A DNA stretch of 34,477 nt from a virus. Under the pieces are notes generated by a model. That model made no database searches and had not been told where the DNA came from. It was given only the letters and a program-made list of their open reading frames with translations. Position numbers and translations under genes: made by a program. The stretch is from positions 1 through 34,477 of the IMG/VR virus record IMGVR_UViG_3300047557_000428; one strand, 5' to 3'. Shown piece after piece: positions 2,922 through 34,477 of the stretch; the stretch's first letter is position 1; each line of letters starts with the position of its first letter.

Positions 2922-4913
2922 ATGCCTGATTTCGGTTTTGTCGGCCCATCCTACGAAGCCCCAAGCATTTACCAGGATGCCCAAGAGTGCATCAATTTTT
3001 TCCCCGAAGTTGACCCTACCAAGCAGCCTGGGCAACGCGGGGTAGTCGCGCTTTATCCGACGCCGGGACTTACCACCAAGGTTGTTCTTAACTACGGGGA
3101 AGTTCGGGGAATCCGCACCACCTCGGGCGGGACTCAATGTGTTGTGGTGTGCGGGCCATATGTCTATGTCCTGACCACTAGCCTGACCCCGACGATTGTT
3201 GGGTTTTTGAACACTTCCACCGGACGGGTGGGCATTACCGACAACGGGGTCAACGTCTACATAGTAGACGGGGCATATCGGTACACCTGGCGCATTTCTG
3301 CGCCTTCTGCGGCGACGTTTTACGGGTCAATGTCAGGCACTACCCTGACGGTGACGGACGTTTCTAGCGGCTCTTTAGCCGTTGGACAGCAAGTGTTTGG
3401 AGTTGGGGTACTGAACGAAACCGTTATTACCGCGCTGGGCACCGGCACGGGCGGCACGGGGACATACACCATCAATCTGACCCAAACGGTTGCTGCGGAG
3501 AATATGTCGTCGGCAAACGTGGGCGCGGTAGTTACGGGCAGTATCTCGGGAACCACGCTTACGGTTACCGCGGTGAGTTCTGGAACCCTATACCTTGGGC
3601 AAACCATTCAAGGAACCGGCGTTACCGCTAACACAATGATTGTGTCGTTTGGCTCAGGCAGCGGCGGGGCTGGAACCTATACCGTCAGCAGCAGCCAAAC
3701 GGTCGGATCAACCACCCTGTATGCGCTGAACTTTACGCAGATTCCGTCAACGGATGGGGCGTTTTCGGGCGCAAACGTGGTGGACATTGTGGACAACTAT
3801 TTTGTCTACAACAAACCCGGTAGCCAGCAATGGGGCGCATCTGACTTTCTTAGTCCAATTTCCCCGACGCTCAGTTACGCGCTGAAGGACGGTGCGCCAG
3901 ATAACCTGGTGAGCCTGATTGTTGATCACCGCGAGGTCTATCTGCTGGGCGAGGCATCTTCTGAGGTCTGGACGGACGTCGGGGCGGTTCCGTTCCCGTT
4001 CCAGCGTATTCCGGGCACCAATACTCAGCATGGTATTGCGGCTGTGTACTCGGTGGCTCGGGTTGGTAATTCGTTTGCGTATGTATCCCGCAACATCCGT
4101 GGCGAGGCACAAATTGTCCAGATGAACGGCTATATCCCGCAGCGCATATCTACGCACGCTGTGGAAAACACGCTGGCAAATCAATACATCGACGACGCGA
4201 TTGCTTGGACGTACCAGCTGGAGGGCCATGAATGTTATGTCGTGACCTTCCCGACGCTTGACCTGACTTGGGTCTATGACGCCACCACGCAGATGTGGCA
4301 CAAGTGGCTGTATGTGAACAATGACAATGGCTACGAACGCCACCGCGGGAACTGCTGCACGTTGTTCCAGAACATGATCCTGGTCGGGGACTACGAGAAC
4401 GGCAAGGTCTACATGCTAGATCGGGCCAATTACACGGATGATGGGCAGGAAATCCGCAGACTGCGGCGTGCGCCTCACTTGGTTGCTGATCTGCAACGGC
4501 AGTATTTCGACGAGTTCCAGATTCAATTCCAACCAGGCGTTGGAACAACCGGATTCTCGGTGCAGACGGGGGCAATCCAGCCCGCAACGATTGAGTCTCC
4601 GTACACGATTTATCCCAATGATGCCCTGACAATTGGGCCAAACGACATTGTTTATCTTGGACAGACGTCTGTGGTGAACGTGCAAGACACGACAACCTAT
4701 CCCCAGGCCATGCTGCGGTGGTCAAACGATGGCGGCAGCACCTGGTCAAACGAACATTGGGTGACCATTGGTCAGCAGGGCAAGTACAAGAACCGCGCAA
4801 TCTGGCGGCGTCTTGGCATGGCCCGAGACCGAGTGTTTGAGGTTGTGGTGTCTGATCCGGTCAAGGCAGTCATTGTGTCTGCCAACCTTAAAGCAAGCCA
4901 AGGAGATAACTGA
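2922..4913 (+). CDS. P22 gp10-like packaged-DNA stabilisation protein (tail hub)
   Basis: The protein is 663 aa. The first 130 residues ([20 protein letters not shown], then a G-V-LYPTPGL turn) and the part after residue 270 match the P22 gp10 family, the hexameric hub under gp4 to which the tail proteins attach. Later hallmarks are [20 protein letters not shown] and the [15 protein letters not shown] strand pair typical of its propeller-like core. P22 gp10 is 472 aa; the surplus is largely two beta-modules at residues 135-197 and 206-268. The start is an ATG with AAGGA about 8 bases upstream. Its stop overlaps the next start by one base (TGATG). Confidence 0.85.
3324..3512 (+). repeat. Inserted beta-module, copy B (in the gp10-like gene)
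   Basis: About 63 residues: [16 protein letters not shown], a central -G-GV---T-I, then [13 protein letters not shown]. It is adjacent to copy C and alike in length and motif order. Confidence 0.75.
3537..3725 (+). repeat. Inserted beta-module, copy C (in the gp10-like gene)
   Basis: About 63 residues: [26 protein letters not shown], then [13 protein letters not shown]. It is closest to copy B and follows it after a short linker (residues 198-205). Confidence 0.75.
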
Positions 4914-5163: not shown

Positions 5164-7341
5164 ATGGCTGATTTAATTGCAAGCATCAACGAAGCGGTAA
5201 GCGGAGCAATGTCCGGGTCAACCTCACAAACAACAAATGATCGGTTAATTACGGATTACCAGGGAACGCAATATGACGCAAAAACAATATTAAATCTTGC
5301 AAATCAAGTTGCCAAAAATCTTGATGTATCCAAGAGTTCAGGCGGTGTATTTGGAACGCAAGGACAAAGTGTAGGATTTGATTTTGCGGAATCTAGCCGA
5401 ATTCTTGGTCGCGCTCCTACCGCTGCAGAGCAAGTCACGCTTGACATGGCGCGTGAATTGGCGCGTCAGGGTGTAACTGACATTAACCAGTTACAGCAAA
5501 AGACATACACGACGCCAGATCAATTTATTGCGAGTGAGGGTGGCGATTATGTGATTCCGGGGTATGAAACCCAAGGATTATTTGCGGGTGATAAACAAAT
5601 TGGGGGAGTTGGTTCAAATCAATTTGGAGTAACGTACACCGGAAAAGGTGGAACTGGCTACAACATTGAGTTTGATCCGAACACTGGCAAGCCTAAATTT
5701 TCCACCAGCGGTTTTTCGACAAGTGATGCAGATGCACTTGCTCCGTTATTGTTGATGGGGGGATTAGCCCTTGGTGCGCCGTATCTTGGCAATCTTTTTG
5801 GGGCTGGTGCAGGTACTACGTTGGGCGGTTTGGGAGCAACAGAATTAGCTATTGCAGCCGGTGAAGGGCTTTTGCCAGTTACCGCTGGACAACTAACAAC
5901 TGCCGGGTTGACTGGTTCTCAATTGGGGGCGCTAGGAAGCGGGATTGGTCTTGGTGGTGCTGGTTTGGCTGGCGCTGGTCTTGGTGGCGCTGCAACAGGA
6001 GGCGGGGCCGGTGTTAACTATGGATTAGGTACGGGAAGCAACCTTGCCAGCATGGGCGGGGGTCAAGGTCTTACCGGCGGTGTCGGTGCAAACCTTGCGG
6101 GGATGGGTGGTGGTCAGGGGTTATCTACCACGCTTGGGGCGGGAACTAGTTTGACTGGCGGCGTTGGTGGAAGTGGCGCATTGATGACCGCTGGTGGATT
6201 GGTATTGCCTGGTGCTGGCACTTTGGCAGGCATTAACCCGCTGACCGGTTTGCCGCTTGGGGCAACCGTAACTGGCACAAATGTCATAACGGGCCTGGGT
6301 GGGCTGACCACTCTTGGCGGTCTTGGGAATGCTGGCGTCACAGTAGGGCCAGGAGGCACACTGTTGCCCACCGGGGGCACTGGAATGGGTGGCGGTACAG
6401 GTGGCGGTACGGGTGGCGGCGTAGGCGGCGGTACGGGTGGCGGCGTAGGCGGCGGTACGGGCGGCGGTACAGGTGGCGGTACAGGTGGCGGTACGGGTGG
6501 CGGTACAGGTGGCGGTACAGGTGGCGGTACAGGTGGCGGTACGGGTGGCGGCGTTGGCGGCTTGCTTGGTGGGTTGCTTGGTGGGTTGTCGACGGGAACC
6601 GGTCTTGCAGGATTGTTGTCGGGTATTGGATCGCTGACCAGCGGAGTCTTGGGTGCAAACGCAGCGGAGAAAGCTGCCGCGATTCAACAGCAGACCGCTT
6701 TAGCGCAGATGAAGCAACAGCGCGAGTTGTTTGACATCATCAACGCCCAGCAAGCCCCATATCGAACAGCAGGATATGGAGCACTCAGCACCATTGGCGG
6801 CATGTTGCCGGGTCAGCAGCCGGTCTACGACACGACTGGTAAGCAAATCGGCACGCAAGAAGGCACGGGTTATCTGACCCAACAATACACGCCAGAACTG
6901 TTCCAAAAGCAAATCGATCCTGGCTACGCATTCCGTCTTGCACAAGGACAGATGGCGGCGCAAAGGGCTGGAAACGTTGCTGGTGGCGGTCTTGGCGGCA
7001 ATGTCATGCGTGGTTTGCAGGACTACACCCAAGGTCTTGCAAGCACGGAATACGGCAATGCATTTAATCGCTTCCAGGCGCAGCGCCAGAACATCTACAA
7101 CACCCTGGCAGGGATTGCGGGGATCGGACAGACGGGACAAGCCGCGGCAAACCAAGCCGCCCAGCAGTATGGTCAAAACGTGGCGAACTTGGCTACGGGC
7201 GCTGCAGGGGCGCAGGCCGCGGGCACGATTGGCGCGGCGCAGGGTTATGGTCAGGGCATCAGCGGATTGGCAAACAGCTTGATGCTGGCGCAGTTGCTTG
7301 GACAGAATCAGAACGTTGCTGCACAACCCACTATTGGGTAA
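5164..7341 (+). CDS. DNA-transfer (ejection) protein, P22 gp7-like, with long Gly-rich centre
   Basis: The product is 725 aa. The C-terminal 220 residues (coiled region AAEKAAAIQQQTALAQMKQQ, then DPGYAFRLAQGQMAAQ, GNVMRGLQDYTQGLASTEY and RFQAQRQNIYNTLAGIAG) are the conserved part of gp7/'P32-like' DNA-transfer proteins. These are packed in the head and ejected to help DNA cross the cell envelope. P22 gp7 is 229 aa, so about 500 residues are added in front. Residues 200-460 are very rich in Gly and Ala and include 14 tandem GGGT/GGGV units. The frame also opens at a TTG at 5146, but the ATG at 5164 behind GGAGAGAG is preferred. Confidence 0.75.
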   Translation: MADLIASINEAVSGAMSGSTSQTTNDRLITDYQGTQYDAKTILNLANQVAKNLDVSKSSGGVFGTQGQSVGFDFAESSRILGRAPTAAEQVTLDMARELARQGVTDINQLQQKTYTTPDQFIASEGGDYVIPGYETQGLFAGDKQIGGVGSNQFGVTYTGKGGTGYNIEFDPNTGKPKFSTSGFSTSDADALAPLLLMGGLALGAPYLGNLFGAGAGTTLGGLGATELAIAAGEGLLPVTAGQLTTAGLTGSQLGALGSGIGLGGAGLAGAGLGGAATGGGAGVNYGLGTGSNLASMGGGQGLTGGVGANLAGMGGGQGLSTTLGAGTSLTGGVGGSGALMTAGGLVLPGAGTLAGINPLTGLPLGATVTGTNVITGLGGLTTLGGLGNAGVTVGPGGTLLPTGGTGMGGGTGGGTGGGVGGGTGGGVGGGTGGGTGGGTGGGTGGGTGGGTGGGTGGGTGGGVGGLLGGLLGGLSTGTGLAGLLSGIGSLTSGVLGANAAEKAAAIQQQTALAQMKQQRELFDIINAQQAPYRTAGYGALSTIGGMLPGQQPVYDTTGKQIGTQEGTGYLTQQYTPELFQKQIDPGYAFRLAQGQMAAQRAGNVAGGGLGGNVMRGLQDYTQGLASTEYGNAFNRFQAQRQNIYNTLAGIAGIGQTGQAAANQAAQQYGQNVANLATGAAGAQAAGTIGAAQGYGQGISGLANSLMLAQLLGQNQNVAAQPTIG
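6388..6555 (+). repeat. 12-bp tandem repeat, 14 units, encoding (GGGT/V)14
   Basis: Fourteen in-frame units of the type ggtggcggtaca, with acg or gtc/gta/gtt variants in the last codon, run without a break. They encode Gly-Gly-Gly followed by Thr (11 units) or Val (3 units) at residues 409-464 of the DNA-transfer protein. The unit is a multiple of three, so gain or loss of copies would keep the frame. Confidence 0.95.
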
Positions 7342-13436: not shown

Positions 13437-13601
13437 ATGGCTACCAACTTCAAAGTCACCCAAGAGAAATCCAAGAACAAGGAACCCGTGCATTACGAGT
13501 ATGAGCGTGAGCATGTGGCTGAGATGCGCCGCATCAAAGCGCTTGAGCAAGAGCTAAAACGCCACGAAAAGATGCCCGCAGACAAGGCACACGGCAAGTA
13601 A
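13437..13601 (+). CDS. 54-aa charged protein after the lysozyme
   Basis: The frame has an ATG seven bases after the lysozyme stop, with a GAGGA site at 13428-13432. The product is rich in Lys, Glu and His (HYEYEREHVAEMRRIKALEQ) and would be one long helix. It is the last gene before the terminator at 13637. It is not recognised. Confidence 0.6.
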   Translation: MATNFKVTQEKSKNKEPVHYEYEREHVAEMRRIKALEQELKRHEKMPADKAHGK

Positions 13602-14086: not shown

Positions 14087-14412
14087 TCGTGGGATGTGAT
14101 TTGTAGACGTTTGGTGGCCTCGCGGGTGCGCCACACTTCTATATCCAATCGAGCCGCTTCCAGTTCCCACCGCAGGGTTTCTTCAACCTCTATGGCGACC
14201 TGGAGGCCCAACAGGAGTTCTTGGTATTCTGGACTGGCAAGGGCTTCGCGCTGCTGGGCATTTGCCGCTTCAATGTTTCTGGCAAGCGCATCCTTCATTA
14301 GAAGGGCTAGTTTTACCTTTTTGAATTCGTCTAAATAAACCCGTCGGGCTTTTGCTTCACCATATATCGGGGCTTTTTCACGGATTGTCTCTGCAGCTTT
14401 GTCTGGACTCAC
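14083..14412 (-). CDS. Helical phage protein of unknown function, next to rusA
   Basis: The product is 109 aa from a GTG that overlaps the RusA stop (GTGA). The sequence is a near-continuous charged helix: KARRVYLDEFKKVKLALLMK, then LASPEYQELLLGLQVAIEVE and LRWELEAARLDIEVWRTREA. This type is common beside RusA or replication genes in phages. The longer open frame upstream of 14412 overlaps RusA and is only its shadow. It is coupled at both ends by four-base overlaps. Confidence 0.72.
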   Translation of the reverse strand: MSPDKAAETIREKAPIYGEAKARRVYLDEFKKVKLALLMKDALARNIEAANAQQREALASPEYQELLLGLQVAIEVEETLRWELEAARLDIEVWRTREATKRLQITSHE

Positions 14413-14828
14413 GGCAGTTCCTCTTTGACCAAAATGTGTACGCTGGGAATGGTTCCGTAGACTTTTGTGCAATGCAGCGTAACGACCTGTTTGTCGTCCA
14501 GGTAGACGATGCCGTTCATGCCATCCAAGAACGCTTTTGCCACGTTGTCGAGGTCTGGTTTCTTCAAAGGGCGCTCGGAACCGTCTAAAACGGCCTGTAG
14601 GCGCTTTTTGGGCAGGGATGAAGGGATGGGTAGCGTAACGTAGCAAAAAACGGCTACAGGCGTTTGTACGGGGTCTGACGAACCCATTGCGAATTTCGCC
14701 ATGTCGCGGATTTCGGTTTCGTAGCCTGCGGTTTTGGCGGGGGTGTAGGCGCGTCCGGTCTTGGTGAACCTGGGGCGGGCTTTTCCTTGGGGTGGGCCGT
14801 AAACGCAAAAGGTGACTTGGAAGGTCAT
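14409..14828 (-). CDS. rusA: RusA-type Holliday junction resolvase
   Basis: The product is 139 aa, the usual length for the family. It begins with a strand and YGPPQGKARPRFT, and carries the active-site block PDLDNVAKAFLDGMNG followed by YLDDKQV. Asp92, Asp94 and Asp111/112 correspond to the metal-binding acids of E. coli RusA. It cuts Holliday junctions made by recombination. It starts with ATG in an ATGA overlap with the gene upstream and lies in the leftward operon, away from the ERF/exonuclease genes on the other strand. Confidence 0.92.
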   Translation of the reverse strand: MTFQVTFCVYGPPQGKARPRFTKTGRAYTPAKTAGYETEIRDMAKFAMGSSDPVQTPVAVFCYVTLPIPSSLPKKRLQAVLDGSERPLKKPDLDNVAKAFLDGMNGIVYLDDKQVVTLHCTKVYGTIPSVHILVKEELP

Positions 14829-15107: not shown

Positions 15108-15300
15108 ATTGCTCTGCCCATGCGTTAAATTCTTTTGCTTTGGCAGGATTCGGTTTAATCCATTGATGTTCTGAACACATTGGTTTATTTCCATCAATAT
15201 GCACAGACCAACGTTTACGGCATCCAGGCGCATAACACATTAGTTTTTGCAATGCGTCTTGTTCAGATTCTTGTTTTCTTTCGGGCTTAATAAAACTCAT
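15100..15300 (-). CDS. Small Cys-rich protein, likely zinc binding
   Basis: The product is 66 aa. Four likely ligands lie in KLMCYAPGCRKRWSVHIDG and MCSEHQW (C-x4-C ... C-x2-H). It follows the DUF1376 gene with an ATGA overlap. Such short zinc proteins are frequent next to phage replication genes. The role is unknown. Confidence 0.7.
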   Translation of the reverse strand: MSFIKPERKQESEQDALQKLMCYAPGCRKRWSVHIDGNKPMCSEHQWIKPNPAKAKEFNAWAEQYV

Positions 15301-16037
15301 TTTGCGTACTTCCCATCAATAATTTTGGCGAAATTGCCTGCTGTCACGATCCACACAAGGTCTGGTCGCCAACTTCGACCGTTGCTTTCAAACCCGGCAG
15401 ACAACTTCGTGTCGTTGGCAATGTAGGCAAAGAAAGCATCCCACCAAGCAAGTCCTGCCTCTTTGGTTTTGTAGCCTTCAGGACTGTACGCAGATGGTTT
15501 GGATGCTTGAACCCAGCGCTGTTTGAGCATCGCCGCCCGGTTGCCTTCCCACACCCTGGGCTGGGCAAGGTGCGGTAGGTGCTTGGCATACAACTTCAAA
15601 ATCTCCTGTTGCGGGCAAGGCGGGAACGCAGTTCCCGACATAGATGCGTAAGCATCTTCTATATCTTGGTTATTGGTTAATGGTTCATGGTTTATGGTTG
15701 GTTGAACGGGCGTTGAACGGGCGTTGAGCCGACGTTCAGCGCTTGCTTTACCAGCGCGTGACGCCTGTTCAATCTTGCCGTGATAAGCGGCAATTTCCTG
15801 GGCGCATCGAGCGTGAACGTAACCGGTGGGCGTCAACTCAAACATGTCACGCAAAACGCCGCCAACCAAATCGGCAGGCATACGGATGCGCTTGGCAACC
15901 CAATCTATGTCAAGCGGGATTGGCTTTTCGGTGTCGTAGTACATATCCAGCAGCCGCCGGTATGTCAAATCTTCATCGTTCGACAGGTGCGCGGTCGACG
16001 AACGATAGTCCCCTATGTGGAACTGATAGTAGTGCAT
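15297..16037 (-). CDS. Replication protein with DUF1376 domain (O-like)
   Basis: The product is 246 aa. Residues 1-85 are a DUF1376 domain (MHYYQFHIGDYRSSTAHLSN, then EDLTYRRLLDMYYDTEKPIP and WVAKRIRM), a winged-helix-like start found in phage replication initiation proteins. A variable Pro/Asn linker (about 105-135) leads to a C-terminal part with Trp-rich helices (LAWWDAFFAYIAN, RSWRPDLVWIV) that often contacts a helicase loader. No helicase or polymerase is visible, so the phage would use the host's. It is the third gene of the leftward operon, 101 bases from the gene before it. Confidence 0.82.
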   Translation of the reverse strand: MHYYQFHIGDYRSSTAHLSNDEDLTYRRLLDMYYDTEKPIPLDIDWVAKRIRMPADLVGGVLRDMFELTPTGYVHARCAQEIAAYHGKIEQASRAGKASAERRLNARSTPVQPTINHEPLTNNQDIEDAYASMSGTAFPPCPQQEILKLYAKHLPHLAQPRVWEGNRAAMLKQRWVQASKPSAYSPEGYKTKEAGLAWWDAFFAYIANDTKLSAGFESNGRSWRPDLVWIVTAGNFAKIIDGKYAK

Positions 16038-16096
16038 GACAACTCCGCAACGCTCCCAAAAAGGAAACCATCGGCAGGCGGGGAGGTACGCTTTTC

Positions 16097-16118
16097 GGCA
16101 AGGTAGCTACTCCTTGCC
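16097..16118 (-). other. Stem-loop in the leader of the DUF1376 gene
   Basis: A perfect 7-bp stem ggcaagg/ccttgcc encloses an 8-base loop (tagctact). It lies in the 101-base gap upstream of the DUF1376 start (16037). No T tract follows on either strand, so it is not a standard terminator. It could be an RNA structure or a protein site. Confidence 0.55.
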
Positions 16119-16138
16119 TAGCCGGGTTTCGCAACATC

Positions 16139-16315
16139 TTACTGTTTTTTTTCTGGCGTGTGAACCATGTACGCAGGAATCACCCGATGGAAGGGCATGA
16201 AATCCGTGGTAGCCCGCTGCGTTGGGACGCGAGGCCAGTCCAGCTTGCACGGCCCACGCCAGTTGAAATCGTTGTTTTCTGACTTCGGGATGTTCGTACC
16301 AGGCCAATACTTCAT
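16139..16315 (-). CDS. 58-aa protein downstream of the Cro-like gene
   Basis: The product begins MKYWPGTNIPKSENNDFNWR and has further basic and proline-rich sequence. The ATG at 16315 is preferred because it overlaps the Cro-like stop (ATGA) and has GGAG about 9 bases upstream. The frame opens earlier at 16351, but that part shadows the regulator. Short proteins with a PGTN...FNW start occur after Cro-like genes in related phages, to my recollection; the function is unknown. Confidence 0.6.
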   Translation of the reverse strand: MKYWPGTNIPKSENNDFNWRGPCKLDWPRVPTQRATTDFMPFHRVIPAYMVHTPEKKQ

Positions 16316-16467
16316 TTGAACCACTCCGGGCGCAACACCCGCAGCTGCCACACGCGGGCTGCAGGCACAGACTCACCCCATTGGCTGACCGCAGCGCTGG
16401 AGATGCCCAGCAGCCGCGCTAAGGCAGCAGCGCCGCCAGCCAGATCAATTGCACGTTTCGTATCCAT
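16312..16467 (-). CDS. Cro/YdaS-like helix-turn-helix regulator
   Basis: The product is 51 aa: MDTKRAIDLAGGAAALARLL, then GISSAAVSQWGESVPAARVW and a short end. AAALARLLGISSAAVSQWG is a clear helix-turn-helix with the SAAVSQW recognition helix found in Cro/YdaS-type proteins. It is the first gene of the leftward operon and faces the rightward early genes, the position of cro-type control genes. Three inverted repeats lie in the gap in front of it and are its likely operators, so it probably controls itself and the rightward promoter. No CI-like partner is recognised in the genome. Confidence 0.82.
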   Translation of the reverse strand: MDTKRAIDLAGGAAALARLLGISSAAVSQWGESVPAARVWQLRVLRPEWFK

Positions 16468-16475
16468 CCCGCCAT

Positions 16476-16489
16476 GTTAGCAGGCTTAC
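16476..16489. promoter_or_regulatory. Operator-like inverted repeat O1
   Basis: The sequence gttagc-ag-gcttac is a 14-bp dyad with one mismatch to gtaagc-NG-gcttac. It starts 9 bp upstream of the Cro-like start and overlaps a -10-like taacat on the minus strand. It is centred 21 bp, two helical turns, from O2. Confidence 0.65.
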
Positions 16490-16496
16490 CACACTC

Positions 16497-16510
16497 TTAA
16501 GCAGGGTTAC
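16497..16510. promoter_or_regulatory. Operator-like inverted repeat O2
   Basis: The sequence ttaagc-ag-ggttac is a weaker copy of the same dyad, with changes at one position in each half. It lies two helical turns from O1, on the same face of the DNA. Confidence 0.55.
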
Positions 16511-16530
16511 ACTCTTTTGCACTTTAGTTG

Positions 16531-16559
16531 TTGACGGGTAAGGTAAGCGGGCTTACGAT
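16531..16559 (+). promoter_or_regulatory. Rightward early promoter
   Basis: A -35 box ttgacg (16531-16536) and a -10 box tacgat (16554-16559) are separated by 17 bp, the ideal spacing. The start of transcription would fall near 16566, about 40 bases before the first rightward gene. The perfect operator O3 lies between and across the boxes, so a bound repressor would block it. Confidence 0.75.
16543..16556. promoter_or_regulatory. Operator-like inverted repeat O3 (perfect)
   Basis: The sequence gtaagc-gg-gcttac is a perfect 14-bp dyad. It sits inside the rightward promoter, covering the end of the spacer and the first bases of the -10 box. Confidence 0.75.
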
Positions 16560-16606
16560 GCATCCATGCCGTAGCGATTCGCAAGCGGTCTTTTTAGGAG
16601 CCAATC

Positions 16607-16786
16607 ATGGCTGACTTTCAAATCCTTCCCTGGAGTTTCAACGATACCGAGGCGACGCTGGTTGCTTTGAACGACGCGGCGAAAGACCGCATCTATGGTG
16701 GCGTGTCGGTTGCCATCAAGTTGTCGGAACTGCAGCGCTGGTATGCAACGCTGATTGGTGACGGGTTCAAGGTTCAAGTGCTATGA
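16607..16786 (+). CDS. First rightward early gene, 59 aa, unknown function
   Basis: The product starts MADFQILPWSFNDTEATLVA and continues with a strand-helix mix ending GFKVQVL. AGGAG at 16595-16599 gives it a good ribosome site. It is the first gene under the rightward promoter and is coupled to the next frame by an ATGA overlap. It has no helix-turn-helix and is not recognised. An early host-takeover or control role is only a guess from position. Confidence 0.65.
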   Translation: MADFQILPWSFNDTEATLVALNDAAKDRIYGGVSVAIKLSELQRWYATLIGDGFKVQVL

Positions 16787-16890
16787 CCTGGCCCTTCCCA
16801 CCTCCAGGTGGGCCTATTCCTTGGACACCCAAACAGGAGCAAGACTATGCAAAACAGCAACGTGACCAAACCCCGCCTGCGCCCTATTGA
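16783..16890 (+). CDS. Possible 35-aa Pro-rich peptide
   Basis: The frame reads MTWPFPPPGGPIPWTPKQEQ and then a short Gln/Pro tail. It starts in an ATGA overlap with the gene before. The Pro/Trp-rich start may be a real short protein, but the region also contains a tight inverted repeat (cccacc/ggtggg at 16797-16812) that could explain the composition. Confidence 0.42.
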   Translation: MTWPFPPPGGPIPWTPKQEQDYAKQQRDQTPPAPY

Positions 16891-17439: not shown

Positions 17440-17481
17440 GCCACCAACAATGGTATGAAACCGTAGCAATTGAGGAACATT

Positions 17482-18054
17482 ATGAAGAACATCGCAAGCG
17501 CATTAGTGAAAGCACAGAAGGACTTTGGCCCAGCCTTGAAGTCCAGCAGCAACCCTCACTTCAAGAGCCGATACGCAGACTTAGCGGCGTGTGTGGAAGC
17601 GGTGGTGGACTCCCTGAACAAGAACGGCATCTTCCTGATGCAACAGAACCACGAGTGTTCTGACGGGGTCATTGTCGAGACCGTATTCATCCATGAAAGC
17701 GGTGAAACCTACAGCGCGGGCAAACTGCACGTTCCTGCTGCCAAGCACGACCCCCAAGGGTACGGATCGGCCCTGACTTATGCCCGCCGCTACAGCCTGA
17801 TGAGCGCCTGCGGCATAGCGCCCGAGGACGATGACGGAAACGCCGCCAAGCTCAAACCCCAAAAGCCCGCGGAGGCCATGCCAGAGGGCAAGCAAAGCAA
17901 GATTCTTGACCTGGTGGCGGCAATGGCTGACGCACCGGACGAGGACACGCTCAAGAAACTTTACGGGGAAGCGTACATCCTGTCTGCAGGCGACCAGGTC
18001 ATGCAGGCAAAAGTCATCACGGCAAAGAACAAACGCAAAGCGGAGTTGGTATGA
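17482..18054 (+). CDS. erf: ERF-family single-strand annealing recombinase
   Basis: The product is 190 aa. It starts MKNIASALVKAQKDFGPALK, then NPHFKSRYADLAACVEAVVD, and has the ERF block GYGSALTYARRYSLMSACGI followed by an acidic EDDDGNAA. These match the ERF family, whose founder is P22 Erf. Such rings anneal single strands and help circularise or replicate phage DNA. The ATG at 17482 behind GAGGA is preferred over a TTG at 17470. With the exonuclease at 18899 and the SSB-like gene at 19495 it forms a recombination set. It overlaps the next gene by four bases. Confidence 0.9.
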   Translation: MKNIASALVKAQKDFGPALKSSSNPHFKSRYADLAACVEAVVDSLNKNGIFLMQQNHECSDGVIVETVFIHESGETYSAGKLHVPAAKHDPQGYGSALTYARRYSLMSACGIAPEDDDGNAAKLKPQKPAEAMPEGKQSKILDLVAAMADAPDEDTLKKLYGEAYILSAGDQVMQAKVITAKNKRKAELV

Positions 18055-18559: not shown

Positions 18560-18899
18560 ATGGATTGACCCCAACACCCAAACCCCGCCGTTTAATCAGC
18601 AAATTCTTGTTGTGCTGGGCGGTAGCGGCAGTACGGACGCGACGACCACATGGGACAAGTACGTCAAGGTCTGCAACGTCATCATCGGCAAAACAAGCCC
18701 AAACGACAATGATCCGTTTGACCAGTGGGACGAGTTTGTTGAAAACGGCAAGAAAGATTACGACACTTTCCAGTTCTACGTTTTTGATTACGCAGATTAC
18801 ACATATGGTATGGGCGAGGATTCCGATTCAGACTGGTATTCGGACGCAATTATTTGCTGGGCATCAATGCCAAACCTAACAGAATTCAAAGGTGTCTAA
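18549..18899 (+). CDS. DUF551-like small protein
   Basis: The product is 116 aa. The start (EIKWIDPNTQTPPFNQQILV) and end (AIICWASMPNL) recall the W----LPP-G--VLV ... -WMPLP layout of DUF551-type phage proteins. The middle is acidic and aromatic (DQWDEFVENGKKDYDTFQFY). The ATG overlaps the previous gene by 11 bases and has AAGGAG just upstream. The TAA overlaps the exonuclease ATG by one base. Function is unknown; the family match is tentative. Confidence 0.6.
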   Translation: MEIKWIDPNTQTPPFNQQILVVLGGSGSTDATTTWDKYVKVCNVIIGKTSPNDNDPFDQWDEFVENGKKDYDTFQFYVFDYADYTYGMGEDSDSDWYSDAIICWASMPNLTEFKGV

Positions 18900-19498
18900 T
18901 GGATCAACGAACTGACGAATGGTTTGCCGCCCGCCTGGGCAAAGTCACCGCAAGCCGCATCAAGGACGTACTGGCAGGCAAAACCACCGCAGCGCGGCGC
19001 AACTATCTGGCCCAGCTGGTGGTGGAGCGACTGACCCAAAAAGCACCGGAATCCTTTACCAACGCCGCGATGCAATGGGGCACGGATCAGGAACCCTTTG
19101 CCAGAGCCGCATACGAGGCCAAAACGGGCGTTCTGGTCGACGAAACCGGCCTGGTTGACCATCCGGTCATCCCCATGAGTGGCGCGTCCCCTGACGGGCT
19201 TGTAGCCAATGACGGACTGGTGGAGATTAAGTGCCCCAACACCGCCACGCACATGGACACCTTGCTGACCAAGACCCCGGACTCGGACTATGTCGGTCAG
19301 ATGCAATGGCAGATGGCCTGCACGGGACGCAAGTGGTGTGATTTCGTGAGTTTTGACCCGCGGATGCCCGAGAATCTGCAGTTATGTGTTATTCGGGTAA
19401 ATCGGGATGATAAAAAGATTGAGGAAATAGAAAAGGAGGTAATAAAATTCTTATCTGAAATCGATCAAAAGATTACCCAATTGAAAGCAATCATATGA
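18899..19498 (+). CDS. YqaJ-type (lambda Exo-like) recombination exonuclease
   Basis: The product is 199 aa from ATG at 18899. It has RTDEWFAARLGKVTASRI at the start, then WGTDQEPFAR with Glu65, SPDG with Asp99, and VEIKCPN with Glu109 and Lys111. These are the metal and catalytic residues of the YqaJ/lambda exonuclease fold. It digests one strand at double-strand ends to expose DNA for the ERF protein encoded upstream. The longer frame from 18854 shadows the previous gene. The C-terminus is a Lys/Glu helix. It overlaps the next gene by four bases. Confidence 0.9.
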   Translation: MDQRTDEWFAARLGKVTASRIKDVLAGKTTAARRNYLAQLVVERLTQKAPESFTNAAMQWGTDQEPFARAAYEAKTGVLVDETGLVDHPVIPMSGASPDGLVANDGLVEIKCPNTATHMDTLLTKTPDSDYVGQMQWQMACTGRKWCDFVSFDPRMPENLQLCVIRVNRDDKKIEEIEKEVIKFLSEIDQKITQLKAII

Positions 19499-20533: not shown

Positions 20534-20752
20534 ATGGCTGAGAATCATTGTATTGATTGCAAGTATTTTGTCGACCACACCCAATTAGGGCAATGTCGGC
20601 GGTTCCCCCTATATCAAGCGCGGCACAGAAACGAGTGGTGCGGGGAATTCTGGCCTCAGGAAGTGGATGTCACATTCCAACCGAAAGAAGTGCAAGTGAT
20701 TCCCGTCGTGGAACCCAAGCGCAAACCTGGAAGGCCGAAGAAAAATGCTTAA
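20534..20752 (+). CDS. Small four-Cys protein with AT-hook-like tail
   Basis: The product is 72 aa. Cys6, Cys9, Cys21 and Cys36 (CIDCKYF, GQCRRFP, EWCGEFWP) could bind zinc or an iron-sulphur cluster. The C-terminus RKPGRPKKNA matches the core of an AT-hook, which binds the minor groove of AT-rich DNA. The TAA lies eight bases inside the GroES-like gene. Role unknown; a DNA-linked one is possible. Confidence 0.62.
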   Translation: MAENHCIDCKYFVDHTQLGQCRRFPLYQARHRNEWCGEFWPQEVDVTFQPKEVQVIPVVEPKRKPGRPKKNA

Positions 20753-21002
20753 ACCCTTGCGCGACAGAATTGTCGTAAAGCCACAGACCCGCAGCATCAG
20801 CGACGTCATTTATGTGGACAACCGAGAACCCTTCAACGAGGGCACGGTCATTGCTATAGGCCCGCTGGTAGACCAGACCAAAGTTGGGGATTTCATCAAG
20901 TACGGCAATGGGGACTATTTGAATTGGCCTGTCCACAACATTGATGGGCAGGACTACCAGATCATTCAAGAAGCGGACATTTGCGCCGTGGTAGAACCAT
21001 GA
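20745..21002 (+). CDS. GroES-like co-chaperonin
   Basis: The product is 85 aa, near the 95-97 aa of bacterial GroES. It starts MLKPLRDRIVVKPQTR, has a mobile-loop-like SISDVIYVDN, then EGTVIAIGP, KVGDFIKYG and the ending EADICAVVEP. These follow the order of the Cpn10 fold (PL-DRV-VK ... G-V-AVG ... VGD-V-F ... DILA-VE). A hydrophobic VIY takes the place of the GroEL-binding IVL. Phage co-chaperonins such as T4 gp31 adapt host GroEL for folding their coat protein. It is coupled on both sides by overlaps. Confidence 0.78.
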   Translation: MLKPLRDRIVVKPQTRSISDVIYVDNREPFNEGTVIAIGPLVDQTKVGDFIKYGNGDYLNWPVHNIDGQDYQIIQEADICAVVEP

Positions 21003-21620: not shown

Positions 21621-21699
21621 AGCAGGCAAACCGCCGAAACAGGCGGTTGCAATCGCCTACTCCGTGAAGCGCGAAGCAGAAAAAAAGAAAAAGAAGTGA
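21559..21699 (+). CDS. 46-aa Lys-rich phage protein ([12 protein letters not shown] type)
   Basis: The frame reads [20 protein letters not shown], then [20 protein letters not shown] and a poly-Lys end. The '[14 protein letters not shown]' pattern is widespread in phages beside packaging genes; its role is unknown. Its stop overlaps the GTG of the methyltransferase (GTGA). Confidence 0.65.
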
Positions 21700-22898
21700 A
21701 AATCACCGTTAAAAAGGTCGCAGAACTAATTCCTTACGCTAATAACAGCCGCACTCATAGCGACGAACAGGTCGCACAAATTGCGGCAAGCATTAAGGAG
21801 TTTGGCTGGACTAACCCGATCCTGGTGGACGGAACGAACGGCATCATTGCGGGCCACGGCAGACTGATGGCAGCGCGAAAGCTCGGGCACGCGGAAGTGC
21901 CAACGATTGAGCTAAAAGACCTGACCGAGACCCAGCGCAAGGCATATATTATTGCCGATAACAAACTGGCCTTAAATGCAGGGTGGGACAATGACCTGCT
22001 GAAGCTGGAGTTTGATGAGCTGCAGGAGGTTGGGTTTGACTTGGAACTGACAGGTTTTACCCTGGACGAAATTGCCGCGCTGAATCCTGAAGAACTGACG
22101 GAAGGGCTAACGGATGAGGACGAAGCGCCGCCCGTTCCTGAAGAGCCTAAGACAAAGCCGGGTGATATTTACCAGTTGGGTAAGCACCGGCTGATGTGCG
22201 GTGATAGCACCAGCATTGAGGCTTTAGAGACGTTGTGTGATGGCCAGCCTGTGGATATGTGGCTGACTGACCCGCCATATAACGTTGCTTACGAGGGTGG
22301 CACAAAGGAAAAACTGACAATCAAAAACGACTCAATGGGCGACGACCAATTTCGGCAGTTTCTGCGAGACGCTTACACCGCTGCGGACGCCGTGATGAAA
22401 CCGGGCGCGGTGTTTTACATTTGGCACGCAGATTCAGAAGGTTACAACTTCCGGGGCGCGGCAAAGGACGCCGCCTGGATTGTTCGGCAATGCCTGATTT
22501 GGAAAAAGTCAAGTTTGGTGCTTGGTCGCCAAGATTATCAATGGCGGCACGAACCCTGCTTGTACGGGTGGAAAGAAGGCGCGGGGCATTTGTGGGCGTC
22601 TGACCGTAAACAGACCACCATCTTAGAGTTTGACAAGCCAGCCCGGAATGGCGAACACCCAACAATGAAGCCGGTGGCGTTGTTTGAATACCAAATGCTT
22701 AACAACACGAAAGGCGGCGACATTGTGTTGGATAGTTTTGGGGGCAGCGGCACAACGCTTATCGCGGCAGAAAAGAACGGACGTCAAGCCAGATTAATGG
22801 AACTAGACCCCAAATACTGCGACGTCATCGTCAAACGATGGGAAGATTTCACCGGCAAAAAAGCAGTTCTGTTGACCGAAGAACCACAAACGGCGTAA
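21696..22898 (+). CDS. ParB-domain/DNA methyltransferase fusion (beta-class N6/N4)
   Basis: The product is 400 aa. Residues 1-125 are a ParB/Srx-like domain ([20 protein letters not shown], and [12 protein letters not shown] at 49-60). Residues 155-400 are an N6-adenine/N4-cytosine methyltransferase: motif IV DPPY at 192-195, HPTMKP at 321-326 and the SAM-binding FGGSG at 348-352. Motif IV before motif I marks the beta class. No restriction enzyme is beside it, so it is an orphan enzyme, likely protecting phage DNA or marking sites. GTG is the start, coupled to the previous gene. The target sequence cannot be read from the protein. Confidence 0.9.
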
Positions 22899-33449: not shown

Positions 33450-34477
33450 TGGGCCACAACGTTCTTAAGTTAGCGGGGCGTGGCGGCGTTGTTACCGACC
33501 CGCAGTTTGAGTACGTCACCATGCTGCTGCACGGTGATGGGACGAACGGTGCGCAGAACAACACGTTCACCGACAGCAGCACCAACAACTTCACCATCAC
33601 CCGCAACGGCAACACGACGCAGGGTACGTTCAGCCCGTATGGGTCGAACTGGTCGAACTACTTTGATGGGTCGGGTGACTACCTGACGTTTCCCAATAAC
33701 ACAGCTTTTGCGTTTGGTACTGGCGCGTTCACGATTGAGTTTTGGGTTAACTCTAACAACCTGAACGACTCCTTCCTCTTGTCTGGTCGGGCTGCAATTG
33801 GCACGATGCACATCACAACCGGAGGGTTTGGTGGCTCTACTGCTGGGGCCTTGCGCTACGTTGGAAGCTCAACTATTACTTCAGGTTCAACGCTAATTAG
33901 CAATAACTTGTGGAACCATTGCGCCATCGTTCGTGACGGCAGCAACAACATTACCTTGTATGTGAATGGTGTTTCTGTTGGCACAGGCACCGACACAACC
34001 AACTACACCACCACATCTGGTACTTGGTATATCAACTGTAACGATTCAGGCCCAACGCCTGGACAAGCTGGCTACATCAGTAACTTGAGGATTGTCAAAG
34101 GTACGGCGGTCTACACCTCCGCCTTCACCCCCAGCACTGCCCCGCTGACAGCCATCACCAACACCTCATTGCTGACCTGCCAGAGCAACCGCTTCATCGA
34201 CAACTCCACCAACGCATTCACAATTACCCGCAACGGTGATGTGAGCGTCCAGCGCTTCAGCCCGTTCGCACCGACTGCTGCTTACTCTGCTGCCACGATT
34301 GGCGGGAGTGGGTACTTTGATGGGAGTGGGGATTACCTGAGCGGCAGCAATAACTCTGTCAGTTTTGGTACCAGCGACTTTACGATTGAACTTTGGCTTT
34401 ATAAAAACACAACCGCAACACAGCGAATTGTTGGTGGGGTGAACTCTGGCTCAGAGTCGTGTGAAAGTTATTTTTTA
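33449..34477 (+). CDS. LamG-domain tail/receptor-binding protein, 5' part (gene spans the contig junction)
   Basis: This is the N-terminal part of the gene completed at 1-1082. After a start MGHNVLKLAGRGGVVTDPQF, residues about 24-70 hold MLLHGDGTNGAQNNTFTDSS and TRNGN. The first LamG-like domain (FTIEFW, then LWNHCAIVRDG and NLRIVKGTAVYTSAF) ends near 34140. A second unit repeats the layout (NSTNAFTITRNGD, YFDGSGDYL, FTIELW). In the joined protein the three domains lie at about residues 70-230, 287-443 and 490-650. The ATG overlaps the previous stop by one base. The final 17 bases of the window do not match the left copy and may not belong to the gene. Confidence 0.85.
   Translation, partial: MGHNVLKLAGRGGVVTDPQFEYVTMLLHGDGTNGAQNNTFTDSSTNNFTITRNGNTTQGTFSPYGSNWSNYFDGSGDYLTFPNNTAFAFGTGAFTIEFWVNSNNLNDSFLLSGRAAIGTMHITTGGFGGSTAGALRYVGSSTITSGSTLISNNLWNHCAIVRDGSNNITLYVNGVSVGTGTDTTNYTTTSGTWYINCNDSGPTPGQAGYISNLRIVKGTAVYTSAFTPSTAPLTAITNTSLLTCQSNRFIDNSTNAFTITRNGDVSVQRFSPFAPTAAYSAATIGGSGYFDGSGDYLSGSNNSVSFGTSDFTIELWLYKNTTATQRIVGGVNSGSESCESYFL
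34335..34460. repeat. Terminal direct repeat, right copy
   Basis: Identical to 1-126. The 17 bases after it (34461-34477) differ from 127-143 and end in a run of T, so they are probably a contig-end artefact or a variant. Confidence 0.93.

Follow-up and report, generated by a model that had tools for sequence, protein, structure and literature searches.

The 139-bp region between cro and the divergent rightward early genes (positions 16468-16606 of the window, i.e., of the whole stretch of 34,477 nt that was analysed) probably is a Cro-only, autorepressed timing switch for early genes, from which both arms of a non-lysogenic P22-like phage are controlled. Judged from sequence, this reading was given a probability of about 0.8. 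The two record ends carry a common 126-bp repeat, and thus the window was read as a circular genome; the last 17 bases (34461-34477) do not match the record start after the end repeat and are probably assembly debris at the circle junction. The window encodes a P22-type portal protein (PF16510, E=3e-175) and a P22-type coat protein (PF11651, E=8e-36) as well as Terminase_3 and RusA, and by its portal and coat sequences it is a P22-like podovirus. It appears to be a small virus of freshwater bacteria, the host probably belonging to the Burkholderiales. According to the main ORFs and family matches, the rightward strand apparently holds all genes from 16607 past the record end to the lysis genes near 13600, and the leftward strand holds those from 16467 down to 13642. 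Because the genes form one rightward and one leftward arm, 16468-16606 is the only place in the genome at which they diverge. The gap length of 139 bp reported in a first-pass annotation was confirmed.

The leftward operon starts with cro (16312-16467, minus strand), and downstream of it are the genes for a DUF1376/O-like replication initiation protein (15297-16037, minus strand, family matches) and for the RusA resolvase (14409-14828, minus strand, PF05866). An int-alpA-like RNA lies between cro and the replication gene (16052-16128, minus strand; RF02996, 35.0 bits versus a cut-off of 35.8). RF02996 is a small RNA in Rfam that is named after integrase and alpA genes. It is over the cut-off in the related locus L021 (6182-6250, plus strand, 36.4 bits), also between cro and the O-like gene; in both cases it resembles a leader element of the replication gene, and an integrase was not found there. 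The rightward operon begins with a gene for 59 amino acids (16607-16786, plus strand) without Pfam or PHROG match, a 39% identical copy of which adjoins cro in L017. It further contains the genes for the Erf single-strand annealing protein (17470-18054, plus strand, PF04404) and for a YqaJ/lambda-type exonuclease (18854-19498, plus strand, PF09588). An unlisted gene for 35 amino acids, MTWPFPPPGGPIPWTPKQEQDYAKQQRDQTPPAPY, was noticed at 16783-16890 (plus strand); a terminator-like hairpin (16797-16812) falls within it. Conserved copies of this gene occur in L001 and Limnohabitans phage DC33 (L070, PQ492659.1, about 3993-4103); in DC33 the matching stretch has no annotated feature. DC33 is filed under Inoviridae (filamentous) though it has 39 kb, and the taxonomy line looks wrong. 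The only DNA likeness to cultured phages was an 82-bp match to DC33; it was rejected as a control region, since it proved to be a small coding gene. A GroES-like co-chaperonin (Cpn10, E=7e-8) is encoded at 20745-21002 (plus strand), and a gene so annotated is also present in MW202674 and MW202520.

The 51-aa product of the first leftward gene is a P22-type Cro repressor by profile, sequence and predicted fold. It matched P22_Cro (PF14549) with E=2e-13 and 50.2 bits versus a curated cut-off of 30.2, and its top sequence match in the PDB was P22 Cro (1rzs, E=1e-5). The AlphaFold2 model (pLDDT 95) has five helices in an all-helical Cro fold. Its best Foldseek match was also P22 Cro 1rzs (TM 0.81, probability 1.00, E 0.014), and N15 Cro was among the best matches as well, P22 Cro and N15 Cro both having a TM of about 0.8. 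The protein had at first been labelled "Cro/YdaS-like". The Cro half of this label holds for a real P22-type Cro, while YdaS_toxin (PF15943, E=9e-10) scores lower over the same residues.

Three related 14-bp dyads had been proposed in the gap, and they are present exactly at the proposed places. O1 (GTTAGCAGGCTTAC, 16476-16489) has 5/6 arm pairs and overlaps the -10 element and the spacer of the cro promoter, O2 (TTAAGCAGGGTTAC, 16497-16510) has 4/6 arm pairs and lies over the -35 area of the same promoter, and O3 (GTAAGCGGGCTTAC, 16543-16556) is a perfect dyad with 6/6 arm pairs. A perfect-core copy of O2 is found at the same place in L001. The centres of O1 and O2 are 21 bp apart, i.e., two helical turns as had been suggested, and the centre spacings are 46 bp for O2-O3 and 67 bp for O1-O3. 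Cooperative looping between O1/O2 and O3 (67 bp) is not claimed, since the spacing differs between relatives (about 37 to 69 bp). The triple-dyad score of the gap was 22, compared to a maximum of 10 in 3000 dinucleotide shuffles, the score having been devised post hoc so that no literal P value should be derived from it. Elsewhere in the window, an equally high score was reached only in a tandem-repeat coding region at 6.3-6.6 kb. The strict core TAAG-N4-CTTA occurs once in the window, namely in O3; with one mismatch it is found in O1, in O2 and at three scattered places. The operator core of P22 is the same and is exact in one OL site and one OR site of the P22 record. The mismatch in O1 (GCTAAC for GCTTAC on the cro strand) would be explained by the same bases having to supply the -10 element of cro.

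The rightward early promoter (PL-like; TTGACG-17-TACGAT, 16531-16559, plus strand) fits the consensus and was the only sigma-70-like site found on the plus strand near the gap; L001 has TTGACG-17-TACATT. As had been proposed, the perfect dyad O3 lies within this promoter and covers the spacer and the first three bases of the -10 element. On the other strand, the predicted cro promoter has the -10 element TAACAT (16474-16479, minus strand), which is preceded by TGC (extended -10) and lies 6 nt before the ATG, and a weak -35 element, TGCTTA (16498-16503, minus strand), inside O2. A -10-like hexamer 6-7 nt before the cro start was found in 17/17 non-redundant CI-less relatives, while 0.75 would be expected. 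A Shine-Dalgarno-like match was sought in the 20 nt upstream of the cro ATG, and none was found. Because the -10 element lies only 6-7 nt before the start of cro in the window and its relatives, the cro mRNA is most likely leaderless, with a predicted start at the ATG. The rightward transcript has a predicted 5' leader (16566-16606, plus strand) with a short 5' stem-loop (AUGCCG..GCGGU) followed by CUUUUUAGGAG. A 5' stem-loop followed by UCUUUUAAGGAG appears to be present in the rightward leaders of the window, L001, L005, L010, L012, L013, L016, L017, L024 and L039, and one pair of the stem is G-C, C-G or A-U depending on the relative. Unrelated stem-loops (AUCAGC..GCUGAU, GUAGCA..UGCUAC) occupy the leader position in another subgroup and in MW202520. 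For single sequences of the window type, the strength of the leader hairpin was not above that of shuffles.

The interpretation of the dyads would have been refuted if they were not conserved in related phages. The comparison did not refute it, but revealed that position and register are kept and that the sites co-vary within each genome. Across the CI-less relatives, the centre of a dyad falls 4-5 bp before the rightward -10 element (z 3.6 at -4), and its sequence varies while its position stays. The operator has the form GTAAGC.., GTTAA-N6-TTAAC in L012, GTAAG-N6-CTTAC in L016, GTAAA-N6-TTTAC in L025 and GTCTAAATTAGTAGAC in L018. A generic scan with TAAG-N4-CTTA misses the operators of CI-less relatives that have another recognition helix, but anchoring at the promoter finds them. 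Should a single Cro act on both promoters, the left and right sites within a genome are expected to be more alike than sites of different phages. The right operator had 11.5/16 identities to the left promoter region of its own genome and 8.75 to those of others, a difference that was reached in 0/20,000 permutations (P<=0.0002). The effect vanished when the 16-mer was shifted off the dyad, and therefore local base composition is not its cause. The left-side copy is clear in most genomes, with operators on both sides, and is not convincing in L010, L017, L019 and L069. In addition, the recognition helix tracks the operator: SQW-type helices mostly occur with TAAG half-sites, and NNW/HNW helices with GTAAA or GTAAG-N6-CTTAC. 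Between the window and L001, conservation extends beyond the dyads and spans nearly the whole stretch from O2 to the rightward -35 element. The left-right co-variation of the operators is an indirect sign that Cro may bind specifically to both promoters.

The absence of CI and integrase from the circle, which had been noted before, was corroborated by a profile search of the whole record, in which no S24 repressor, HTH_3 protein, integrase (PF00589) or resolvase (PF00239) was detected. No repressor gene was recognised on the divergent Erf/YqaJ transcript, so that there is no PRM-like maintenance promoter. The window shares with the lambda/P22 switch the three operators between cro and a divergent gene that overlap both promoters. 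However, the gene that diverges from cro is part of the recombination operon, and neither the CI divergent to cro that characterizes such switches nor the integration enzyme of a temperate phage was found. Relatives of the window's Cro are encoded in 63 IMG/VR loci, and 26 records were searched whole for S24 and integrase. Neither was present in 14/26 records, i.e., in the window and 13 relatives. Absence is meaningful in the window and in the records behind L010 and L023, because these CI-less records are circular by end repeats. An S24 repressor directly divergent to cro by coordinates was found in 10/26 records (e.g., L002-L004, L007, L009 and L027; in L002-L004 S24 is at locus positions 5235-5606 and cro at 6001). 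The latter loci resemble the window in having a Cro that is 63-70% identical and has the RVLRPEWF end; Erf is retained beyond the S24 repressor in L002, L004, L009 and L027, and the O-like gene adjoins cro in L002-L004. They differ by the divergent S24 repressor and, in several cases, by an integrase. Two of the 26 records (those of L031 and L059) have an integrase and no S24 match; the divergent gene adjoining cro in L031 starts HTH-like and is possibly a CI without S24 domain.

At least a dozen relatives, including two circular ones, have the same layout without CI, and in the CI-less group Erf and/or YqaJ are divergent across the control region wherever this is visible. A tblastn search of Cro against GenBank phages yielded no match at E 1e-3, and when GTDB genomes were scanned with the alignment of Cro, no relative turned up, and thus no prophage or host. 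Relatives in GenBank were found through the portal protein. Two of them from Manatee Spring, MW202520 and MW202674, have a P22-like virion with a 64-67% identical portal, and Erf directly adjoins a P22-type Cro in divergent orientation, with no repressor gene between them. Their Cro has diverged from that of the window. In MW202674.1 (L066) the P22-type cro, which is divergent to erf, is unannotated (4569-4712, plus strand), and a gene on the opposite strand was called there.

In the P22 record the order is Erf operon, PL-OL, c2, OR-PR, cro, O-like gene, and in the window it is Erf/YqaJ, O3, O2-O1, cro, O-like gene. Because the gene orders match otherwise, the window corresponds to P22 minus the part that separates PL from PR. 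Common to the window and immC of Salmonella phage P22 are a P22-type Cro, the core TAAG-N4-CTTA, the Erf operon on one side and cro with the O-like gene on the other. Unlike P22, the window has no recognised c2 (CI), c1 (CII), antiterminator gene 24 or integrase, the two operons are separated by 139 bp, measured between their first genes, compared to about a kilobase in P22, and the operators number three, against three plus three in P22. The first-pass annotation had compared the region with the OR switch of lambda. The operators are indeed of the P22/lambda type, but they do not represent OR alone, since O1 and O2 are at cro (PR-like) and O3 is at the PL-like promoter. The region thus looks like OL and OR brought together, i.e., the PL and PR regions of P22 joined back to back without c2. 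The telomere phages PY54, N15 and phiKO2 share features with the window, namely the all-helical Cro (N15) and the leaderless cro mRNA (PY54), which has been shown experimentally to start at the AUG (PMC4488713). In contrast to the window, they are temperate and have CI, and PY54 Cro binds a single operator and seems not to repress the promoter of its own gene (PMC4488713), whereas the window has sites on both promoters. The virulent Staphylococcus aureus phage SA97 also misses lysogeny genes as a relative of temperate phages; however, it lacks cI and cro and keeps the integrase, whereas the window keeps cro and the operators and has no integrase (PMC4632378).

The following course of events is proposed. 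On infection, the two back-to-back promoters would fire. The leftward promoter would yield a leaderless mRNA for Cro, followed by the replication (O-like), RusA and nin-like genes, and the rightward promoter would express the Erf/YqaJ recombination genes. As Cro accumulates, it would occupy its own promoter at O1 and O2 and the opposite one at O3. Bound Cro would shut both promoters and limit the synthesis of itself and of the replication and recombination proteins, affecting both timing and dosage. If the late genes downstream on the rightward strand are served by the same rightward promoter, repression by Cro would reduce them, too. Since CI, a maintenance promoter and an integrase are all missing, a lysogenic state would not be available as a choice. 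The arrangement may have originated from a lambda/P22 immunity region without the segment between PL and PR (c2 and its neighbours), and cI would have been lost rather than never present. The backbone of the Cro tree (about 50 residues) is compatible with both loss and gain of cI.

It had been suggested that the region either has a hidden CI partner or is a timing switch of a lytic phage, and of these the timing switch was retained. If the phage were still temperate, a small gene would have to encode an unrecognised partner of the CI type, which would contend with Cro for the operators. Many early ORFs have no family match, and the three-operator layout resembles OR. However, the slot that holds cI in relatives has only 139 bp here and no gene, HTH_3, S24, integrase and resolvase are all absent from the circular record, and diverse relatives, of which two are circular, also have the layout without CI, which makes a hidden CI clearly unlikely. 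Another explanation takes the wiring itself as its starting point. In lambda dv, cro heads the replication operon and is autorepressed by its own product. The window's cro is also first in the replication operon and is the predicted target of its own product, and thus the leftward cro/O-like unit could maintain the genome extrachromosomally in a carrier or plasmid state, with Cro as a copy-number regulator (a replication model of lambda dv is cited in PMC8313558). The support for this carrier state is the wiring. Against such a replicon, genes for partition or plasmid maintenance were not recognised, the O-like gene showed no iterons, and the ParB_N domain at 21696-22898 belongs to a fusion with a methyltransferase, and therefore it is regarded as improbable. 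It is tempting to speculate that in a stable phage lineage the Cro-only switch itself acts as a lambda-dv-like copy-number governor, allowing extrachromosomal persistence without CI or integrase, and that operators and recognition helix drift jointly from phage to phage, each phage having its specific Cro (an immunity group without lysogeny); this has a low but real probability.

Two further explanations concern the components of the switch. The dyads could serve a host regulator or be a coincidence, with Cro acting elsewhere, and the merely 4/6 palindromic O2 would fit this. Yet none of the 3000 shuffles reached the dyad score, the register is the same in divergent relatives, the left-right co-variation per genome peaks at the dyad, and the dyad core equals the P22 operators, all of which makes this very unlikely. 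The idea that the 51-aa protein acts as a toxin or antitoxin of the YdaS type instead of a lytic repressor deserves next to no credence, the match to YdaS_toxin notwithstanding, because P22_Cro scores better, fold and position match Cro, and no partner toxin gene was seen. Taken together, the Cro-only timing switch of early genes is the preferred reading.

Virulent phages that have lost lysogeny genes are already known, and so is P22-type Cro together with its operators. The novelty is the joined, Cro-only control region that is kept across a lineage with co-varying operators. No earlier description of a Cro-only control region of a lytic phage was found in the open literature, to which the search was confined. 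Most work on Cro has treated it as the antagonist of CI; in this group of phages CI seems to be gone, while Cro has been kept along with its operators and still evolves together with them, so that the timing of lytic growth must be the sole benefit of Cro. The use of Cro where there is no lysogeny to prevent is a long-standing question, which would thus become testable in nature. For work on Cro-DNA recognition, the phage group supplies matched pairs of Cro and operator with differing specificity. The window also shows that the entire genome of a P22-like phage can be organised in two arms that start from one 139-bp control point.
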